42,527 bases of DNA from an uncultured bacterium (GTDB lineage: Bacteria > Acidobacteriota > Aminicenantia > Aminicenantales > Saccharicenantaceae). The stretch's first letter is position 1; each line of letters starts with the position of its first letter. This document shows, piece by piece, positions 5,160-21,587 of the stretch. The notes beneath the pieces were generated by a model. The model did no database searches. It saw only the letters and a list, made by a program, of their open reading frames with translations, and was not told the origin of the DNA. The translations under genes were made by a program, and so were the position numbers. The stretch is from contig CALEUG010000029.1 of NCBI GenBank assembly GCA_937920515.1, forward strand, positions 1-42,527, in the 5' to 3' direction.

Positions 5160-5180
5160 TGGAAATATCAGGAGGGAGTG

Positions 5181-6551
5181 ATGAGTCACTTTAGCAGATG
5201 GTTAGCCATAGTTTTCCCGCTGGTCCTGGCCGTATCTCTTGGCCTGATCACTTCCAGCAGCCTGCAAAAAGCAGGCGATGAGGCCCTGGGCACCAGGAAA
5301 TACAGCGACTACCAGACTCCAGCCTTCTGCGGAACCCAGTGCCACAACGACATCTACCAGCAGTGGAAACAGTCCATGATGTCCCGGGCCTACACCCACC
5401 ACTGGGATGAGATTGAATACTTCAAGCTGGCCGTGCCTCACGCCGAGAAAGACCAGATGGTAGCCGGAGTCAAGGCTGGCTGTAACGGTTGTCATACTCC
5501 GCTGGCCTTCCTGGCCGGCGATGTGCCCCCGCCGCTTCCTTCAAAGAACAGCCGGGCCAACGAATCGGTTTCCTGCGAGCTCTGCCATACAGTAACCGGT
5601 TTTGCCGGTGATGTGCCTTACAACTTCAACTGGATTTCAGAGCCCGGGAAAACCAAGTACGGGCCCAGGGGCGGAACCATCTCTCCCGAACATAACACGG
5701 TAAAATCCGAATTCCTCAGGACGGCCGAGTTCTGTGGCACCTGCCATAACGAAAAGAGTCCCTACGGCATCTGGGTTAAATCCACTCACCTGGAGTGGAA
5801 AGAAGGGCCCTACGCTAAAGAAGGTGTCAGATGCCATGACTGCCACATGACCTATGCCCCGGGAAAAAGTGCCTCAATGGGAAAAAGCTATCCCGATGTC
5901 CGGCAGCACCTGTTCCACGGTGCTCATGACCCGGGCAAGGTTAAGGGCACAATAGAATTGCGCATCCATCCCGATATCAATGAAGCCGTTCCCGGCGATA
6001 AAGTCAGGTTCACCATCGCCCTCTTCAACCAGAAAACCGGCCACAAGTTTCCCACCGGCTCGGTTGAAGACCGCATCGTCTGGATGCACGTGGAAGCAGT
6101 CGATGCTAAAGGCAATCGCTATCACCTTCCGGTCGATAAAAAGGGCTTTGAGGGCGAGGAGTATACCATTGCGGCCGATACCCTGGCCTACCAGGATATG
6201 GGCATAGCCCTCGGCGACCCCGATTTCAAGGGCGTTCAGCGTGACGGGGTGCCGGTCGGCAACCGCATTTTCCGCATGGCTTACTTCGACCCACAGGGCC
6301 GGATGACCATCCAGCAGTGGAACACCAGTTCCCTGGGAGTCGATTACCGGATAGGGCCGCGTGAAACAAAAATAGAAACCTGCACTTTCAGAATTCCAGA
6401 TAACATTCCCCTTGGTCCGCTGGTCGTAACAGCCGTGCTGAATTACCAGAAGCTGGTCAAGCCGGTGGCTGACTTCCTGGGCGTTCCGGAAGAAGAATCG
6501 GAAATTATTGAGGTCAACCGCCATTCCACCACTATTAATATTGTAGATTAA
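5181..6551 (+). CDS. multiheme c-type cytochrome (c554-like)
   Basis: A 456-residue exported protein: the N-terminal helix WLAIVFPLVLAVSLGLITSS is a signal or anchor. Heme motifs are CGTQCH (about 50-55, with three residues between the cysteines), CNGCH (101-105), CELCH (132-136), CGTCH (185-189) and CHDCHM (218-222), giving four canonical and one CX3CH site. The first half resembles cytochrome c554-type multiheme domains; the C-terminal 230 residues are heme-free, beta-rich and contain NQKTGHKFPTGSVED, a segment seen in related multiheme proteins. GGAGGG at 5171-5176 best fits ATG 5181; a GTG at 5178 is too close to it. The barrel gene follows after 39 bp in the same direction, suggesting one electron-transfer unit. 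The electron donor and acceptor are not evident. Confidence 0.88.
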   Translation: MSHFSRWLAIVFPLVLAVSLGLITSSSLQKAGDEALGTRKYSDYQTPAFCGTQCHNDIYQQWKQSMMSRAYTHHWDEIEYFKLAVPHAEKDQMVAGVKAGCNGCHTPLAFLAGDVPPPLPSKNSRANESVSCELCHTVTGFAGDVPYNFNWISEPGKTKYGPRGGTISPEHNTVKSEFLRTAEFCGTCHNEKSPYGIWVKSTHLEWKEGPYAKEGVRCHDCHMTYAPGKSASMGKSYPDVRQHLFHGAHDPGKVKGTIELRIHPDINEAVPGDKVRFTIALFNQKTGHKFPTGSVEDRIVWMHVEAVDAKGNRYHLPVDKKGFEGEEYTIAADTLAYQDMGIALGDPDFKGVQRDGVPVGNRIFRMAYFDPQGRMTIQQWNTSSLGVDYRIGPRETKIETCTFRIPDNIPLGPLVVTAVLNYQKLVKPVADFLGVPEEESEIIEVNRHSTTINIVD

Positions 6552-12894: not shown

Positions 12895-12923
12895 TTGACA
12901 GGGGCTGGTGGTTGTCGTTTAAT
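12895..12923 (+). promoter_or_regulatory. promoter of the Lon-like three-gene operon
   Basis: Perfect TTGACA (12895-12900), a 17-bp spacer, then TTTAAT (12918-12923). The predicted start is about 25 bases before the first gene. Such a strong sigma70-like site suggests steady expression. Confidence 0.6.
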
Positions 12924-12955: not shown

Positions 12956-14008
12956 TTGGGCGAAGAACGCAAGCTTCTTCTCAAACTCCTGTACATAATC
13001 AATAACAACTATACAGAATCCGACCTGGAAGACCTGATCAGGTCCATGGTCAGTCTGCTCCTTCCCCTTATCAGGAAGCAGAGCGGGCTGTACCTGAAGC
13101 TGGCCGGTTACCAGCCCCAGGATATTGCTCTTCTGACTGTCTCCACCCTGTTTATCAGGAACAGGCAGGGCAGATTTCCGGTCCTGGAAAAGCTTTTCAA
13201 CTGGAAAATTGTAGAGAAATTCATGGTGGCCAGCGAAGTGGATTTCAAACGCTACCTGAAAAACATCCTGGCCCGCCGCCTGAAACAAACTTTTTATTAC
13301 CTGAGCAGCGAAATCCGGCCGGAAAGGACTAAAATCAAACGGGAAATTCTTTATGCCCTGAAAAAGCTCCCCGGCTGCCGGATAAATAAAGAAAAAGGCC
13401 GGACCCTGGTTGTCATCCGGCCCGATTACGAAGGAAAAGTAGAGCCCGAAACGTTGACAGAAGATCAGTCCGACCGGCTGCTGGAAATCTGCCTCAATCG
13501 GGGACTTGGTGGCCTTCAGGTTCCCAGGTTTTTCAAAAGGCTGGTTGAAGTGCTGTCCGGGCAGCAACTGGTCGCTGAAGTTTCCCTGAACTCGCTGCTT
13601 GAGGTCTACATTGAAACCCAGAGAAATTACCTGCTGGCTGAATTTGGAAATGGTCCGGTTAACTGGGCCAGGCCAGAGACCGACACTTCATGCCAGGAGT
13701 TGAGTATCTGGATGGAAGAACTCAGAGCCAGAAACATTCTGCTTTTAAACCGTTATCTGGCCAGAAACAAGATCGCAGAAAAAGACAGGGAAGCCTACTT
13801 AAAGGCCCTGAACGACCTGCTCCAGGACTGGCAGGAGGGAGGGCAGGAAAAACCACTTTTTGCCTACCTGAAGAAATACTCGCCGGAGATATCGCCAGAA
13901 GAATACAGGAAAGAAAAGAGAAAAATACTGGAATACCTGGTCAAGACTTCCAGGGATTTCCTCAAGGTTAAGCTTCGGGAACAACAGATAGCTTCTGGGG
14001 GGATATGA
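12956..14008 (+). CDS. possible sigma-factor-like protein, first gene of operon
   Basis: A 350-residue, mostly helical, basic cytosolic protein that I do not recognise with certainty. Residues 35-115 (LLPLIRKQSGLYLKLAGYQP, then FKRYLKNILARRLKQTFYYL) resemble the helices of sigma-factor region 2, and residues 308-345 (EISPEEYRKEKRKILEYLVK, KTSRDFLKVKLRE) sit where region 4 would be; these resemblances are weak and are inference. The TTG start has GGGG upstream with plausible spacing; an in-frame stop at 12920 rules out a much longer form. It overlaps the next gene by 4 bp (ATGA), so the three genes are translationally coupled. It could instead be a helical adaptor or DNA-binding protein. Confidence 0.7.
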   Translation: MGEERKLLLKLLYIINNNYTESDLEDLIRSMVSLLLPLIRKQSGLYLKLAGYQPQDIALLTVSTLFIRNRQGRFPVLEKLFNWKIVEKFMVASEVDFKRYLKNILARRLKQTFYYLSSEIRPERTKIKREILYALKKLPGCRINKEKGRTLVVIRPDYEGKVEPETLTEDQSDRLLEICLNRGLGGLQVPRFFKRLVEVLSGQQLVAEVSLNSLLEVYIETQRNYLLAEFGNGPVNWARPETDTSCQELSIWMEELRARNILLLNRYLARNKIAEKDREAYLKALNDLLQDWQEGGQEKPLFAYLKKYSPEISPEEYRKEKRKILEYLVKTSRDFLKVKLREQQIASGGI

Positions 14009-14691
14009 TGGACAGGAATTTAAAAAAAGCTGCCGACCGGAAACTCATCAACCTCTGTTCAGAAATAGCCCGGCCGAGCGGTTTCGGCAACAGGGTCAGG
14101 CTATTCCACCGCCTCAGCCAGGTCTCACCGTTTCCTCACCTGGTGGGTTTCAGCGGACTTCCTTCCTATGAAATTTATGCCGAAAAGAGGGCTCTGATTT
14201 CTTCCGACCAGAACTTTCTGCTGAGAATTCTTTATGACCAGTTGAGCGGACGCCTGGAAGCACATCTTCTACACCCCCTGGAACATAAGTACCGGTACGC
14301 TTTTATAGTGCTGGACAGTTTGAACCGGGAATTCCTGACCGACCATCACGGCTGGGCCACCCTGGACCAGTTTGACGATGACAGATGGCTTTACTCGGTT
14401 TACGTCTCCCCACCCGGGGCAATATTTGAACTGAAACCAGGCGGCCAGCCTGTTCAAATCTATGCCGGGGAAAGCCTCAAGGACTGCCAGCTAAAAACGG
14501 AGTTTTTTTCAGTCGGGCCTCAATCGACGCTCAAAGTTCAGGCGGTCAACCTGCCGGAGTCCGTTGAGATTAAAAGGATGGTCCTGGTAATCGACGGTGA
14601 GGAAACGTTGATTGCCGTCCCGCGGAAAGACCTGGCCTTTTACGAGCTACCCGAAGGCGCCTGTTGCTTGAGAATTTACCTGTATGAATAA
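14005..14691 (+). CDS. hypothetical protein, second gene of operon
   Basis: A 228-residue protein I cannot assign. It has no signal peptide or membrane helix and appears cytosolic. The N-terminal half is helical (LINLCSEIARPSGFGNRVRL), the middle is aromatic-rich (DDRWLYSVYVSPPGAIFELK), and the last 70 residues (LKVQAVNLPESVEIKRMVLV to CCLRIYLYE) look like a small beta-sandwich. Starts overlap: ATGA with the preceding gene, and an 8-bp overlap with the following gene, so all three proteins are probably made together. ATGATG gives two adjacent start choices. Confidence 0.7.
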   Translation: MMDRNLKKAADRKLINLCSEIARPSGFGNRVRLFHRLSQVSPFPHLVGFSGLPSYEIYAEKRALISSDQNFLLRILYDQLSGRLEAHLLHPLEHKYRYAFIVLDSLNREFLTDHHGWATLDQFDDDRWLYSVYVSPPGAIFELKPGGQPVQIYAGESLKDCQLKTEFFSVGPQSTLKVQAVNLPESVEIKRMVLVIDGEETLIAVPRKDLAFYELPEGACCLRIYLYE

Positions 14692-17062
14692 CAAGAACGA
14701 TAATCAAGCGACAAACCCGGTGATCAACCTGGAGAACCTGTACAATCACACCCTGTCCAGCCTGTCCATTGCCACTGACGACCAGGAAAGGGTCCGCCTG
14801 ATAACCGATTTTTTAAGGTCCACCCGGGACCTGGACGGCGACCTGACCCGTTCCTATCACCTGCAGCTGTCCGGTCTGTTTTTCTTCCTGATCGCCTCCT
14901 TTCAGCCTGAGGGCCTGCCTCCAGAAGAATTGCGGTATTATATTGAAACTCTGTGGCATCTTTACAGAAGATTCAAGGATAAAATTCGCCCCGACCAATT
15001 GAAGGAAGCCCTGAACAACCTCCTTTTTTACCTGGCCCTCAGCCATTTCTATCTGGGTGAACTGGAATACGGCCTGAGAGCCCTGCGCCAGAAACAGAAA
15101 CTGGCCTCCACCACCTCAACGGACAACCTGGAGAGCGACCTTGAGGGCGTCGAGCCGGATTACCCGGACGATTTCCAGGACCTTAAGAATCAGGGCAGTT
15201 CCAACTGGCTGATTTTTCTGGAACTGGCCAGAAAGCTCGGCCGCGAGAATGGCCTGGCCCTGGATATTGACCTGATCCAGGAAAAATGGAAAAGATTTAC
15301 AGGCTGGAGCAGCGACAGTCTTTTCTGCCTGCTGGTCGAAAGGCACGGGCTGTTTCAGGCGGGAGAACGGGCCAGGTTGTTACTGCTCGAAAGCCACTGC
15401 CGGAGAACAGGAGCGGCTGAAGGTCATAACCTGGTCAGGTTTTCCAACCTGCCAGCCTTCCAGCAGGAAAAAATCTACCTGATGGCCACCGACGCCCTGG
15501 AGGCTGCTGACTATCTGCTCAAGAACGAGCATGGATTGAGTCTGCCCCCCTGCACCCTTCTTTTCTCTTTCAGCGAAAAAAATTTCATGTACTCCGGCGA
15601 GAGTCTCAGCCTGCCGCTGGCCACCCTTTCTATCAGCCAGAAGTTGATAGCCAGCCAGCGCCGCTTTCATTTTTCTTATTCGCGAGAAGCGGCCTTTACC
15701 GGCAAGATAGACCTGAACGGAGAAATAAAGGGCATTTCTCCTGAAGCCCTGGAGCTAAAAGTCAGGACCGGCTTTTATTCGGGCCTTCGCTACCTGGTCA
15801 TCCCGGCTGAAAACCTGAAGGAAGCCCGAAACTTCCGTTACAAACTCCTGGCTAAACACCCCTGGAGAAAACTGGAACTGATCGGGGTGAGCAATCTGAA
15901 AGAAATAACAAAGGACAGCCGGATCTGTCAGAAGGTAAAAATACCATTCGTGGCCCACCTGATCCGGACCAGGGGTCGGCTGATCCGGCGGGGATTGCTG
16001 GCCACCCTCGGCCTTCTGGCCCTTATCATCTCCCTGGTCACCATCAACAAGAACCCGTCTTATCATTTCTGGAAAATCAGGCACCCGGTAATAATTGAGC
16101 TTCACGGCAGTCGTCTCTTCGCCCGCAACCCGGAAGAACAGCTGCTCTGGACTTTCCCGCTTCGATATCCTTTCAGGCCGGACAGCCTGCAGCAGAAATT
16201 CCTGGACCTGGACGGAGACGGGGAAGAGGAAATCCTGGTCTCCGGAGATTACCAGAGCGAAGAAAAGGTCAGCTCGGAGCTTTTCTGCCTGAAAAAGTCC
16301 GGAAAATTATTGTGGAGTTACCAGCCCGGGCGGAGGATAAAAACCCTGACCGACGAGTTTTCCAATCATTATTTGATCAAAAGGTTCGAAGCCGCAAATT
16401 TCAGCGGCACTTCATCCGAAAAATCCATCCTGGTAATAGCCAATCACGATACCTGGTATCCGACTCAAATCTCTCTGCTGGATGCCCGGGGCAGGCTCCT
16501 GGGGGAATACTGGAACGTCGGCCATCTCGGCCGGTCAGCCCTGCTGATAGAAGACCTGGACGAAGATGGCTGGAAGGAAATAATTACCGGCGGAACGAAC
16601 AATGACTTTCAGCAGGCCTGTATCCTGGTCCTTGACCCGCGAAACATAGCCGGAGCCTCCCCCGGAAGCGGCAATCCTGAATTTCAATTCAGGGAGCTGC
16701 CGGAAGGGTCCCAGGAATACTACCTGCTGCTGCCCAGGACTACGATCAACCAGGCAAAAGGGCTGAGAAATTATATCACCTCAATTCGCCTTTTCCGCGA
16801 GGAAAAATTGCTGGAAATAACCACCCATGAGTTCAGCAAAGAGGCTTCCTGCCAGATGCTGTACAATTTCGATTTCCGGCTGAGTCCGTTGCTTTCCCGT
16901 CCTACCGACATGCTGATGGAAGCGGTCAAGGAGCTGGTTACCTCCAGAGTTCTCCCCCCGCACGCCGAGACCGAACTAAGAAGCCTTAAAGACAGGATCA
17001 GATACTGGGACGGCCAGGCCTGGGTAAACTATCCGGCCAGGAACAGGAAGCTAAATTTCTGA
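14684..17062 (+). CDS. Lon-like (S16) protease domain, membrane helix, FG-GAP-like region
   Basis: A 792-residue protein with four parts. Residues 1-285 are helical. Residues 290-410 match the Lon proteolytic fold: SGESLSLPLATLSISQK places Ser306 at the GPSAG serine, AFTGKIDLNGEIKGIS mirrors the Lon AMTGEITLRGQVLPIG strand pair, and ELKVRTGFYSGLRYLVIP places Lys359 at the dyad lysine. A single membrane helix (437-454, LLATLGLLALIISLVTIN) follows an Arg-rich stretch, so the protease part should be cytosolic and the C-terminus periplasmic. The C-terminal part has two calcium-type DxDxDG motifs (DLDGDGEEEI near 508, DLDEDGWKEI near 624) as in FG-GAP/VCBS beta-propellers. There is no AAA+ domain. 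The alignment is by eye, so activity is inference, but both dyad residues are present. Confidence 0.78.
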   Translation: MNNKNDNQATNPVINLENLYNHTLSSLSIATDDQERVRLITDFLRSTRDLDGDLTRSYHLQLSGLFFFLIASFQPEGLPPEELRYYIETLWHLYRRFKDKIRPDQLKEALNNLLFYLALSHFYLGELEYGLRALRQKQKLASTTSTDNLESDLEGVEPDYPDDFQDLKNQGSSNWLIFLELARKLGRENGLALDIDLIQEKWKRFTGWSSDSLFCLLVERHGLFQAGERARLLLLESHCRRTGAAEGHNLVRFSNLPAFQQEKIYLMATDALEAADYLLKNEHGLSLPPCTLLFSFSEKNFMYSGESLSLPLATLSISQKLIASQRRFHFSYSREAAFTGKIDLNGEIKGISPEALELKVRTGFYSGLRYLVIPAENLKEARNFRYKLLAKHPWRKLELIGVSNLKEITKDSRICQKVKIPFVAHLIRTRGRLIRRGLLATLGLLALIISLVTINKNPSYHFWKIRHPVIIELHGSRLFARNPEEQLLWTFPLRYPFRPDSLQQKFLDLDGDGEEEILVSGDYQSEEKVSSELFCLKKSGKLLWSYQPGRRIKTLTDEFSNHYLIKRFEAANFSGTSSEKSILVIANHDTWYPTQISLLDARGRLLGEYWNVGHLGRSALLIEDLDEDGWKEIITGGTNNDFQQACILVLDPRNIAGASPGSGNPEFQFRELPEGSQEYYLLLPRTTINQAKGLRNYITSIRLFREEKLLEITTHEFSKEASCQMLYNFDFRLSPLLSRPTDMLMEAVKELVTSRVLPPHAETELRSLKDRIRYWDGQAWVNYPARNRKLNF

Positions 17063-19063: not shown

Positions 19064-21109
19064 TCAGTGCTTCTGGTTGCCCGACGACGAGGCTTTCTCG
19101 CCACCGGAGCGTTCCCCGCTCGAACCCCTGGAAACCGGGGAGGTACTGGCAGTTGAATTTACCGAAGCGCTGCTGGAGGATGAGCCCGCGGAGTAACCGG
19201 CCGAACTTGAGCTGCCGGAATAATCCGGCGCGGTTGCCTGCCGGACAAAACCGCCGGGGGTAATCCTGAGACCCAGATTCCTGGCCTCACGCGAGGTAAA
19301 ACCCAGCTCTGGAGAGACGACAGCGTTCCTGGAGCTGTCGTAAGCTATCCGAACTCCGAGCTGGCGAGCGGTCTTCAGGTCAGGATTCCAGTCGCGGAAC
19401 CTCAAGCCCTGAACCCCGGACTTTCCCTCAGGGGGCATGTTTTCTGCATTTCTTTTCATCTCTGGCCTGGCCTGAACTTCCGGCGACGGGACCTGCTGCC
19501 CGGGAGCTGGCCGGTCGGTCAGCCGGGCCTTTATCTCTTCAGGGTCAGCCCCAGAAGCCCTTACCTCTACAGTTTCGTTTTTACTCTTCAGGAAGCGGAA
19601 AACAGCCAGGTTCCAGGCTGGCACCGTGCCCCGGGCTGCAACATCTGTTTCTCCAGCGGACTGAACCTGCTTGATTTTTCCAGCGAGTTCACTCCAGGAA
19701 ACTTTACGGGCTGCCAGGTCACGGGCTCCGAGGTCATCAGGTCTGACCAGTATCGGTTCCGGCGGTCTGGCCGCAATTCTTTTCAGAACTTCCTGGTCTC
19801 CCCTGTCTATGGCCCGGGCCAGGCTGGCTACCATTTTCTTATAGTCAGGAGGAATGGGCATGGCCTGAGCGCTGGTCTGAGGCTTTTTCAACTGGTCTTT
19901 TGTAATTTTGCGGAGGGCCGGCTGTTCTGAAGATTCGCCGGGCAGAAGGACCGTGCCGCCTGGTCCATATGTATTCCAGTAGCCATACAGATCTCCGTAA
20001 GCATACCCGTAATAGCCAAGCCAGTCGTACAGAAACCAGGGTCTCCAGCTGTAATACCCGAAATAGAAATCCCAGACGGCCCAGGCCGGGGCAAAGGCCG
20101 AACCTGGAATCCATATCCAGCCTTTTTTCTTATCCCACTGCCAGAGACCGAGGTGATAGGGCACCCAGCCCCAGGGTTCAGCCGGTACCCAGAACAGCTG
20201 ACCGTTAAGGTAAGTCCAGTTGCCGTAATAATAGGGACTCCAGTTGCCCCAGGGATAGTAATCATTATAGAAGGGCCTCCAGACGTAGCCAAAATAGTCG
20301 TCCCAGACCCATTCCCCGTACTGGTTGGAATAATACTGGGCAAAGTAAAATACAGCCGGCGGAAGTTTCTGAATGGGTTTGGGTAAAGGGGTAAGCCCTT
20401 TATGGAGTTCCAGGAAATGCTTATTCAGGTCAGCATTCCAGGCCTCAAACTGGCTGAATTCAGGAAAACTCTCCTTGATTTCTATCCTGTGGTCGGAGCC
20501 AACCAGCAGGCTTGTTCCTTTTCCGGCAGCCAGAGTCCTGAGCTCCTGGCTGGAAGGCCCGTAAAGAAGGCTGGCTTTACCCTCTTTCACCGTCAGCCAG
20601 GTTTCCCCGTTATCGGTCACCCGGGTTATCAGGACTGTCTTGTTCTTCATCTTCAGAGCGGCATTGTTTGTCAACAGCTGGAAGACTTCCCGGGAATTAT
20701 AGGCGGTATACATCAGGTAAACCTGTCCTTTTTCCAGCAGCAGGTTGGATAACTGGCCATCGGAACTCAGGCTCTGGGCCATGATGGTTTCAATCTTAAG
20801 CCGGGTGTCTACACCCAGGCGAACGATGGTCCCGCTGTCAAACTGGATTTCGCAGGGTTTATCATAGGTAATGACCAGGTCGCCTGGCCCCAGCGGAAAG
20901 TTTAAGCTGACTGTTTCGGGCCTGGCCAGCCCGGGTCTGATAACTTCCGGTGCCCTGGTTCCCGGTTCCCCGGGAATGTAACTGATATAACCGTAGTAAA
21001 AATTACCTTCTCCGTTTACCAGGGTATAGTGTTTGCGGGCCGCAACAGCTGGCTGGAGCAGCCCGGCCGTTAAAACTCCTATGATTAACCAAAAACCTAT
21101 TTTTTTCAT
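19064..21109 (-). CDS. exported FecR-domain, W/Y-rich (DUF6600-type) protein
   Basis: A 681-residue secreted protein: signal peptide IGFWLIIGVLTAGLLQPAVA, then a FecR-like beta domain (LGPGDLVITYDKPCEIQFDS, about residues 70-190). Residues 255-400 are very rich in Trp and Tyr with repeated short W-x(n)-Y-x(n)-W units (for example YFGYVWRPFYNDYYPWGNWS), as in DUF6600-type proteins. The last 250 residues are Ala/Pro/Ser-rich and end in a Ser-rich tail. It is likely a periplasmic or surface envelope protein; function is unknown. ATG 21109 with GGGG six bases upstream is preferred over GTG 21121. A separate downstream gene is era. Confidence 0.85.
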   Translation of the reverse strand: MKKIGFWLIIGVLTAGLLQPAVAARKHYTLVNGEGNFYYGYISYIPGEPGTRAPEVIRPGLARPETVSLNFPLGPGDLVITYDKPCEIQFDSGTIVRLGVDTRLKIETIMAQSLSSDGQLSNLLLEKGQVYLMYTAYNSREVFQLLTNNAALKMKNKTVLITRVTDNGETWLTVKEGKASLLYGPSSQELRTLAAGKGTSLLVGSDHRIEIKESFPEFSQFEAWNADLNKHFLELHKGLTPLPKPIQKLPPAVFYFAQYYSNQYGEWVWDDYFGYVWRPFYNDYYPWGNWSPYYYGNWTYLNGQLFWVPAEPWGWVPYHLGLWQWDKKKGWIWIPGSAFAPAWAVWDFYFGYYSWRPWFLYDWLGYYGYAYGDLYGYWNTYGPGGTVLLPGESSEQPALRKITKDQLKKPQTSAQAMPIPPDYKKMVASLARAIDRGDQEVLKRIAARPPEPILVRPDDLGARDLAARKVSWSELAGKIKQVQSAGETDVAARGTVPAWNLAVFRFLKSKNETVEVRASGADPEEIKARLTDRPAPGQQVPSPEVQARPEMKRNAENMPPEGKSGVQGLRFRDWNPDLKTARQLGVRIAYDSSRNAVVSPELGFTSREARNLGLRITPGGFVRQATAPDYSGSSSSAGYSAGSSSSSASVNSTASTSPVSRGSSGERSGGEKASSSGNQKH

Positions 21110-21587
21110 TTTACACCCCACATCATATTATTCATAGCATAAAACGTGCCAGCCCTCGACGACAGGATTTCTCTCTTATTCAGCTTTAACCTGCGCTTTA
21201 ACCTGAACCAATTCTGTCCTGTTAATGTCACTCCTGACATCTCTATGATACACCTTGAGAGCCCTGAATTACCAGTATTCCAAAAAGTTTCCAGTCGGTG
21301 GCCTTTTCCCGGGGGCGGTCTTACATCGGATTCTCAGGCAGAAGCAGCCTTGCGTTTCCTGGCCACCGGGCCCAAAAGCCCATTGCTCAGCCAGGGCTGG
21401 CTGCCGGCATCCCTCTGGTCTTCAAGCCAGGAACAAGCCATTACAGGTGGTCGGGCTCATTCCTTTAAGGCAACTTTATAGAGCCTCTGGCAAACACGCG
21501 AATCAGGTATCTCAGAAAACAGGATTTCCATTATTTCTTGCGAAACAGTTGCAACCCGTAGCCGAAGCCGGGTAAAATAGAATTGTG
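21110..21587. other. intergenic region, no gene recognised
   Basis: Noncoding by appearance. Open frames here have no ribosome binding site and low-complexity composition. The first bases carry the upstream region of the minus-strand FecR gene; no clear promoter is seen for the plus-strand gene. Confidence 0.5.

Follow-up and report, generated by a model that had tools for sequence, protein, structure and literature searches.

What might three overlapping genes do together when the last of them seems to join a protease on one side of the membrane to a sensor on the other? The question is raised by a stretch of 42,527 nucleotides (positions 1 to 42,527 of contig CALEUG010000029.1, assembly GCA_937920515.1; the window, in what follows, means the whole of it) from an uncultured acidobacterium of the genus Candidatus Saccharicenans. 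The open reading frames of genes 1, 2 and 3 of this trio all lie on the plus strand and overlap by 4 bp and 8 bp, as an initial annotation of the sequence had reported. Lon domains are best known from ATP-driven degradation machines. A few that lack an AAA+ module serve as signalling scissors (CalpL) or probably work in the extracellular space (YlbL), and the predicted product of gene 3 would be arranged otherwise, with a Lon-like domain inside and a beta-propeller outside. We read it, tentatively, as a sensor-gated protease making a limited cut in the pair formed by the products of genes 1 and 2, in the manner of the CalpL/CalpT/CalpS system: a quite possible account, which we stop short of calling probable.

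Similarity to Lon (S16) proteases emerges from profiles of the family. Alone, the 792-residue protein of the window has no Lon match in a single-sequence Pfam search, and a weak match to LonB in NCBIfam (expectation value, E, 0.013). Among 14 members of the gene 3 family, Pfam Lon_C matches eight, with a best E of 1.8e-4. Compared with the PDB, a profile of residues 1-425 yields 19 matches at E up to 10, of which 12 are Lon proteases; the six best are all Lon (E 0.0027-0.25), the best of them covering residues 332-410. The same profile, run over 94 genomes of the order, retrieves outside the genus a canonical Lon only (E 2e-4). Once one distant homologue is added it matches 70 further genomes of the phylum, in open frames of the size of Lon (767-988 aa) for 65 of these 70 Lon-type matches; the alignment spans residue 307 in four of them. 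HHalign was applied to a set of four Lon-family proteins: the two canonical Lons of the own genome of the window, the Lon of genome G075 and an AAA+ protein that is Lon-like but more distant. It gave E 2.5e-5, or 9.4e-6 with the distant homologue included, and a score of 51.9 to be set against 16.2 +/- 2.1 for column-shuffled Lon profiles, none of the 40 scoring as high. Residues 246-415 (E 2.7e-6), and residues 333-415, which contain the lysine, by themselves (E 6.9e-7), likewise exceed all 40 shuffles. Gene 3 thus carries what, by profile comparison, is a divergent Lon-type domain of the AAA-less kind: searched at E up to 10, the 14 members match 13 Pfam families, none of which is an AAA family, no PDZ match appears in Pfam across these members, and no SAVED or other defence model is found either there or when the window proteins are submitted to PADLOC.

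Does this domain keep the residues needed for cutting? The initial annotation had proposed a dyad of Ser306 and Lys359. The lysine is numbered correctly, while the serine is residue 307, within Y303-S304-G305-E306-S307. After realignment by HHalign, S307 falls on the serine of the GPSAG motif of Lon and K359 on the lysine of its KEK motif. It is the lysine half of the domain that carries significance, so that the predicted similarity to S16 proteases holds for this half and does not extend to the serine half taken alone, and the serine is assigned from its register, its order and its invariance. When the serine half is placed on the 731-column Lon profile, the best position puts G305-E306-S307 exactly on the G-P-S of GPSAG, for both segments that were compared. 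Furthermore, all 17 homologues keep S307 and K359, in an alignment where 75 of the 792 positions are invariant overall, among them Y303, G305, G340, G346, L356, P374 and N377. The two conditions under which the initial annotation would have been refuted, an absence of S16 similarity and a loss of the Ser and Lys in homologues, were both checked, and neither was observed. Two of these homologues are distant, with 30-31% identity in the Lon-like domain. The ratio of non-synonymous to synonymous substitution rates (dN/dS) of the domain, 0.10-0.12 in three pairs, is that of purifying selection. The order of strands and helices at residues 250-410 presumably matches that of the Lon fold, an agreement that is not a structural test. 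We note in passing that the same genome encodes further Lon-family and RadA-like proteins (L001, L002, L003 and L004), which we take to be two canonical Lons, one distant Lon-like AAA+ protein and one RadA-like protein; in the last, if we name it rightly, the Lon-like domain is without the GxS serine.

The remainder of gene 3 agrees well with what had been announced, namely a single membrane helix with a positive-inside bias, followed by an FG-GAP part with two DxDxDG motifs. Exactly one hydrophobic segment is found, at the matching place, in each of the 17 homologues. In the window protein four lysines or arginines stand in the 15 residues that precede it, versus two in the 15 that follow, and the excess is on the Lon side in 12 of the 17 homologues. 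The DxDxDG motifs are present at D508-D512 and D624-D628. With E up to 10, all 14 members match Beta-prop_CGLA in Pfam (best E 1.6e-6) and 13 of them match FG-GAP_3 (best E 7.6e-6), the propeller matches of the window protein itself falling below the curated cut-offs. An AlphaFold model built from 14 rows (predicted local distance difference test, pLDDT, 69; predicted template modelling score, pTM, 0.45) is fair for the helical N-terminus and the propeller, and its Foldseek matches include propellers (best E 5.9e-5). On this predicted topology, a periplasmic sensor controlling a cytosolic protease is plausible.

The propeller is not a private feature of the trio. Residues 462-784 match proteins in 15 of the 21 genomes searched outside the genus, with a best E of 4.5e-57. 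When the best match of each genome is considered, 14 of the 15 display near the N-terminus a motif resembling a helix-turn-helix (HTH), WK[ED]I...RTxxR, and the fifteenth (L034) has a near-match, WKAI, at the same place. All 15 have a hydrophobic helix between this motif and the propeller (L030 has a second hydrophobic stretch), and a tail similar to that of gene 3, as judged by eye, is present in proteins of this type. In the three of these relatives that were searched, Pfam gave HTH matches below threshold or none at all (best E 0.0019). Contact with DNA requires an HTH to be on the cytosolic side, and a cytosolic HTH in the relatives supports a cytosolic location for the Lon-like side of gene 3. 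Going by the order of domains, the Lon-like domain sits in gene 3 in the place of the HTH, and a single sensor module appears to have two outputs, HTH or Lon-like protease. Within the 19 genomes sampled in the genus, the propeller search detected no protein with HTH, membrane helix and propeller, gene 3 itself being the only match. Elsewhere a single-pass family with HTH-like motif, transmembrane helix and FG-GAP propeller was observed across Aminicenantes/Acidobacteriota (examples are L053:8163-9593, L052:8077-9363, L050:392-1723 and L054:7941-9296).

If gene 3 encodes a signalling protease, are genes 1 and 2 its companions by descent? In the genus sample, where the genome of the window is one of the 19, gene 3 is present in 15 genomes, gene 1 in 15 and all three genes in 14; the genes were seen side by side as a trio in the window and in 13 relatives. 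One of these (G006) has its gene 3 broken between two frames near the start and its gene 1 cut by a contig edge, and in another genome (G012) gene 3 lies at a contig edge. Two contigs (G001 and G016) end beside rpsP, where absence of the trio cannot be judged. Beyond the genus, a gene 2 profile made from genus sequences only and run over 396 genomes of the phylum revealed two distant loci, G221 (E 2.9e-13) and G210 (E 1.8e-6). The first belongs to a different class of the phylum and carries all three genes in the same order, with a gene 3 of 757 aa and 25-26% identity to the window for each of the three genes. The second, from the same class as the window, has genes 1 and 2 on one contig and an intact gene 3 of 806 aa on another. 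Profiles of gene 3 and of gene 1, run over the same 396 genomes, detected, beyond the genus, no full-length gene 3 and no gene 1 except in G221 and G210; G221 being a row in these later profiles, its recovery there is by construction, while that of G210 is not. Hence, of the 388 sampled genomes outside the genus, these two alone carry any trio gene, with the reservation that such large searches score few candidates per genome and may miss some. If two pairs were drawn at random from 388 genomes, they would by our own arithmetic be identical about one time in 75,000. The three genes are, by this distribution, co-inherited, and the expectation that the same trio would be met in other genomes is borne out by the genus and by G221.

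Other candidates for a wider distribution were discarded. A gene 2 match in G062 (E 0.005) lies in what we take to be a bL21-like ribosomal protein, and weak ones in G038 lie in proteins that are presumably arabinofuranosidase-like; both were taken as chance. A third lineage was sought by synteny in G024, where the slot from rpsP to the gene of a coenzyme A (CoA)-binding protein holds, as judged by eye, a transporter-like and a hydrolase-like gene rather than the trio. The trio was not retained as a mobile element, as all genus loci with readable flanks share them on one side at least; the sole plasmid search made, with the gene 1 homologue of G221, found no match. Nor was it retained as a defence system, no PADLOC model matching the three window proteins. 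Finally, dN/dS is 0.16-0.26 for gene 1 and 0.21-0.29 for gene 2 (three trio-bearing pairs for each gene); for the domains of gene 3 it is 0.08-0.24 (three of the four pairs were divergent enough). With values as low as these, the codon use of all three genes shows selection.

The nature of the companions is harder to grasp. On the strength of the layout, the gene 1 product is a candidate partner or regulated output of the protease, and that of gene 2 a candidate substrate or inhibitor partner. Gene 1 has no passing match in Pfam (15 members), in PDB profile searches or by fold; its AlphaFold model (pLDDT 80, pTM 0.42) has a best Foldseek E of 0.25. Gene 2 has no accepted match in Pfam or the PDB; its PDB matches to designed pentatricopeptide repeats were rejected, with no single stretch passing and a score summed over repeats. 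Gene 1 had been described as putatively sigma-like, and this description finds no support. It would make of the trio an extracytoplasmic analogue of CalpL/CalpT/CalpS, with gene 1 as a highly divergent sigma factor and gene 2 as the corresponding anti-sigma, a special case of the reading that we favour and, in our opinion, a quite unlikely one. Against a profile of nine extracytoplasmic function (ECF) sigma factors, HHalign gives gene 1 an E of 0.18, or 0.05 with the distant homologue, at the edge of the shuffled controls. In the latter comparison residues 93-140 align in the right order, presumably with region 2.3 onward, and one of 40 shuffles is as high. Residues 1-150 alone give E 0.037 with one of 60 shuffles as high (three of the four sets of shuffles had one shuffle above 130, probably a fault in script reading, counted as exceeding). 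An RNA polymerase holoenzyme chain, which we take to be the sigma subunit, comes at rank 22 in Foldseek with E 3.3. These values, however, are at noise level: gene 1 scores higher against Lon, an unrelated control (21.6), than against sigma (20.4), Pfam matches no Sigma70 model to any of the 15 members, the PDB profile searches return no sigma factor, and the structural comparison starts from a model of low pTM.

We infer from this assembly a chain of events that may be described as follows. Gene 3 would encode a single-pass signalling protease of the inner membrane. Its extracytoplasmic propeller would bind a signal, which would be relayed through the single helix, probably via a change in oligomeric state, and the cytosolic AAA-less Lon-like domain, with its Ser307-Lys359 pair, would then make a limited cut in a cytosolic partner. 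The partner cut would most likely be the gene 2 product, which is a guess, and the gene 1 product would be freed or inactivated, with altered gene expression as the result. The lack of AAA+ leaves the protein with no unfoldase, so that a dedicated partner is likelier than bulk degradation, and the tight link between genes 1 and 2 speaks for a complex in which one of the two is cut. A bolder version, put forward with slightly more reserve, is that a Lon-derived peptidase has been fused to the propeller of single-pass HTH regulators, the signal reaching the genome via the cut gene 1-gene 2 pair and not through direct DNA binding, with gene 1 as a transcription factor of an undescribed family. 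A protein with the predicted architecture of gene 3 would in itself be a one-protein route from an envelope signal to cytosolic proteolysis. The module common with HTH proteins would allow one to compare two outputs of what may be one sensor, and two conserved families without an accepted match, those of genes 1 and 2, would be placed in a testable pathway.

Several observations weigh against this proposal, and some of them invite other explanations. The serine half of the Lon-like domain, compared with Lon by itself, is not significant, whether as residues 246-332 (E 0.47, seven of 40 shuffles as high) or 285-332 (E 0.39, six of 40), and before realignment the full match covers residues 333-380 only. 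The Thr of the TG motif is part of the active site of Lon; the corresponding residue here, T339 beside G340, is T in 13 of the 17 homologues, S in two and A in two, and GPSAG is replaced by G-x-S-[LFI]-[SG]. In the model of gene 3, residues 210-328, the stretch with the serine, are poor (pLDDT mostly 26-43), so that the geometry of the dyad is unproven. One could therefore imagine that the domain does not cut, having become a platform for oligomerization or binding that passes the signal of the propeller to the products of genes 1 and 2. RadA offers a parallel, its Lon-like domain being such an oligomerization and protein-binding platform, and the divergence of the serine half, too great for a match to Lon by itself, speaks for this explanation. 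We nevertheless find it somewhat unlikely: a dead domain would be expected to lose the Ser or the Lys, and both are kept in every homologue, including the two distant ones, as are the Lon landmarks G340, G346, P374 and N377. Orientation in the membrane is another weak point, the balance of lysine and arginine around the helix being equal in four of the 17 homologues (one with an unread X stretch) and opposite in one.

The companions raise difficulties of their own. With no recognised fold in gene 1 or gene 2, both substrate and output are guesses in our proposal. In G018 (L049:8183-9521) gene 1 is intact, gene 2 broken and gene 3 not found, and this gene 1 is under purifying selection (dN/dS 0.13 versus G017); a regulator acting unrestrained fits this situation, and an independent role fits it equally. 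In G210, gene 3 (L167:7531-9951) is unlinked from genes 1 and 2 (L146:701-1730), and gene 1 is interrupted, lying in two frames next to a short frame for gene 2. Both pieces match the gene 1 profile (E 2.9e-20 and 3.1e-15), and real decay cannot be told from an assembly error. The unlinked gene 3 would suit a protease that cuts other targets, misfolded or regulatory cytosolic proteins for example, with the products of genes 1 and 2 as adaptors or regulators, and the N-terminal helical region could bind adaptors. This we deem unlikely, since the genes of the trio overlap one another in the window and are found together in genomes outside the genus, and since a protease without unfoldase would rather be suited to limited cuts in dedicated partners. 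There is also the idea of a self-processing switch, the Lon-like domain cutting gene 3 near the membrane to release its helical and Lon-like part as a messenger. The succession of cytosolic part, membrane helix and sensor would permit it, and a basic segment precedes the helix. Yet the linker and helix are the least conserved part of the protein (20.5% identity to the window in G221, 22.2% in G210), which suggests no fixed site and makes this last explanation very unlikely indeed. We keep the reading of limited proteolysis directed at the gene 1-gene 2 pair.

How is this system expressed, and where does it lie? The features of the locus are collected in the table below.

Table. Features of the trio locus, in positions of the window
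Feature	Position	Strand	Remarks
Promoter-like TTGACA-17 nt-TTTAAT	12895..12923	+	Read from the sequence; 5′ of the trio
Gene 1	12956..14008	+	350 aa, TTG start; helical with a central alpha/beta stretch
Gene 2	14005..14691	+	228 aa; overlaps gene 1 by 4 bp
Gene 3	14684..17062	+	792 aa; overlaps gene 2 by 8 bp; helical region, Lon-like domain, transmembrane helix, beta-propeller
All-helical N-terminal region, gene 3 residues 16-205	14729..15298	+	AlphaFold, block pLDDT 68-95
Lon (S16)-like proteolytic domain, gene 3 residues 246-415	15419..15928	+	Pfam, PDB profiles, HHalign
S307 codon	15602..15604	+	Aligns with the Lon catalytic Ser; 17/17 homologues
K359 codon	15758..15760	+	Aligns with the Lon catalytic Lys, (G)(V/I)xxK motif; 17/17 homologues
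Single transmembrane helix, gene 3 residues 433-457	15980..16054	+	Only hydrophobic segment above threshold
Extracytoplasmic FG-GAP-type beta-propeller (predicted), gene 3 residues 471-740	16094..16903	+	Pfam, Foldseek
Conserved tail with W-x-G-x-x-W, gene 3 residues 741-792	16904..17059	+	W775, G777 and W780 invariant in 17 homologues

The trio had been credited with a promoter of its own, and conservation agrees with this. Gene 1 was found at 15 loci of the genus, and CTTGACA is identical in 13 of the 13 upstream regions that were aligned, with a conserved TTxAATT 17-18 nt 3′ of it. An automatic promoter scan missed the TTGACA-17-TTTAAT arrangement, demanding as it does an A at position 2 of the -10 box, and its best match nearby (11/12) is on the minus strand, towards rpsP; the claim consequently owes its support to conservation and not to the scan. 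In 13 of 13 aligned loci of the genus the start codon of gene 1 is TTG, possibly a sign of translational control. The trio diverges from what we take to be rpsP-KH-rimM-trmD-rplS-rnhB, and the gene of a CoA-binding protein and presumably era are found downstream (these names come in part from Pfam). Among the 13 relatives, rpsP is upstream as in the window in ten, and two more share the downstream genes; one contig (G013) is too short to judge its flanks. The CoA-binding gene follows the trio in nine and era is present in eight. In G005 (L122:3399-5884) a FecR-like gene comes immediately after rpsP, and the slot contains neither the trio nor the CoA-binding gene nor era. In the window a FecR-like protein of 685 aa (19064-21121, minus strand), with DUF6600 and a weak FecR match, is encoded near the trio, as it is in most readable loci of the genus. 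Farther away, positions 5178-6551 (plus strand) encode a multihaem cytochrome c-like protein with Pfam matches to NapC/NirT and c554.

It remains to place the trio among known systems. Lon-type signalling proteases without AAA+ are known; in the titles and opening lines of abstracts listed by searches of open-licence PMC papers, we found no description of a protein joining Lon to FG-GAP, or Lon to a propeller through a membrane helix, nor of the trio with its partner genes. Signal-gated proteolysis is a recurrent theme. Excerpts of one account describe how, with Cas7-11/Csx29-Csx30-CASP-sigma as with DegS/RseA/RpoE, it controls a transcription factor, as in our proposal (PMC10028731). The sequence relation of these systems to the trio was compared through PADLOC and Pfam alone. 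Their protease folds and sensors are unlike those of gene 3. Closer by its anchoring is YlbL, a membrane-bound AAA-less Lon with a Ser-Lys dyad and a PDZ domain, the protease part of which its authors, in the portion of their text at hand, think to be extracellular (PMC6051672). Gene 3 would share with it the anchored Lon domain and the dyad. It differs by the absence of PDZ and by its predicted orientation, the Lon-like domain being in the cytosol and the propeller outside, whereas the Lon domain of YlbL probably faces outward. Closest by its logic is CalpL, a SAVED-Lon protein that, according to excerpts of two studies, oligomerizes on cyclic tetra-adenylate (cA4) and cuts the anti-sigma CalpT (PMC11417357; PMC11229360). 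CalpL, CalpT and CalpS resemble the trio in that a sensor-fused Lon domain is encoded alongside two partner proteins (PMC11417357; PMC11229360). The sensor of CalpL, by contrast, is a C-terminal SAVED domain detecting cA4 in the context of type III CRISPR, while that of gene 3 would be a propeller across the membrane; moreover, no sigma factor comparable to CalpS can be recognised in gene 1, and no trio protein is matched by PADLOC. The nearest kin of the sensor itself are the HTH proteins of Aminicenantes/Acidobacteriota, which have the same propeller module behind one membrane helix, and in which the cytosolic part is HTH-like where that of gene 3 is Lon-like.

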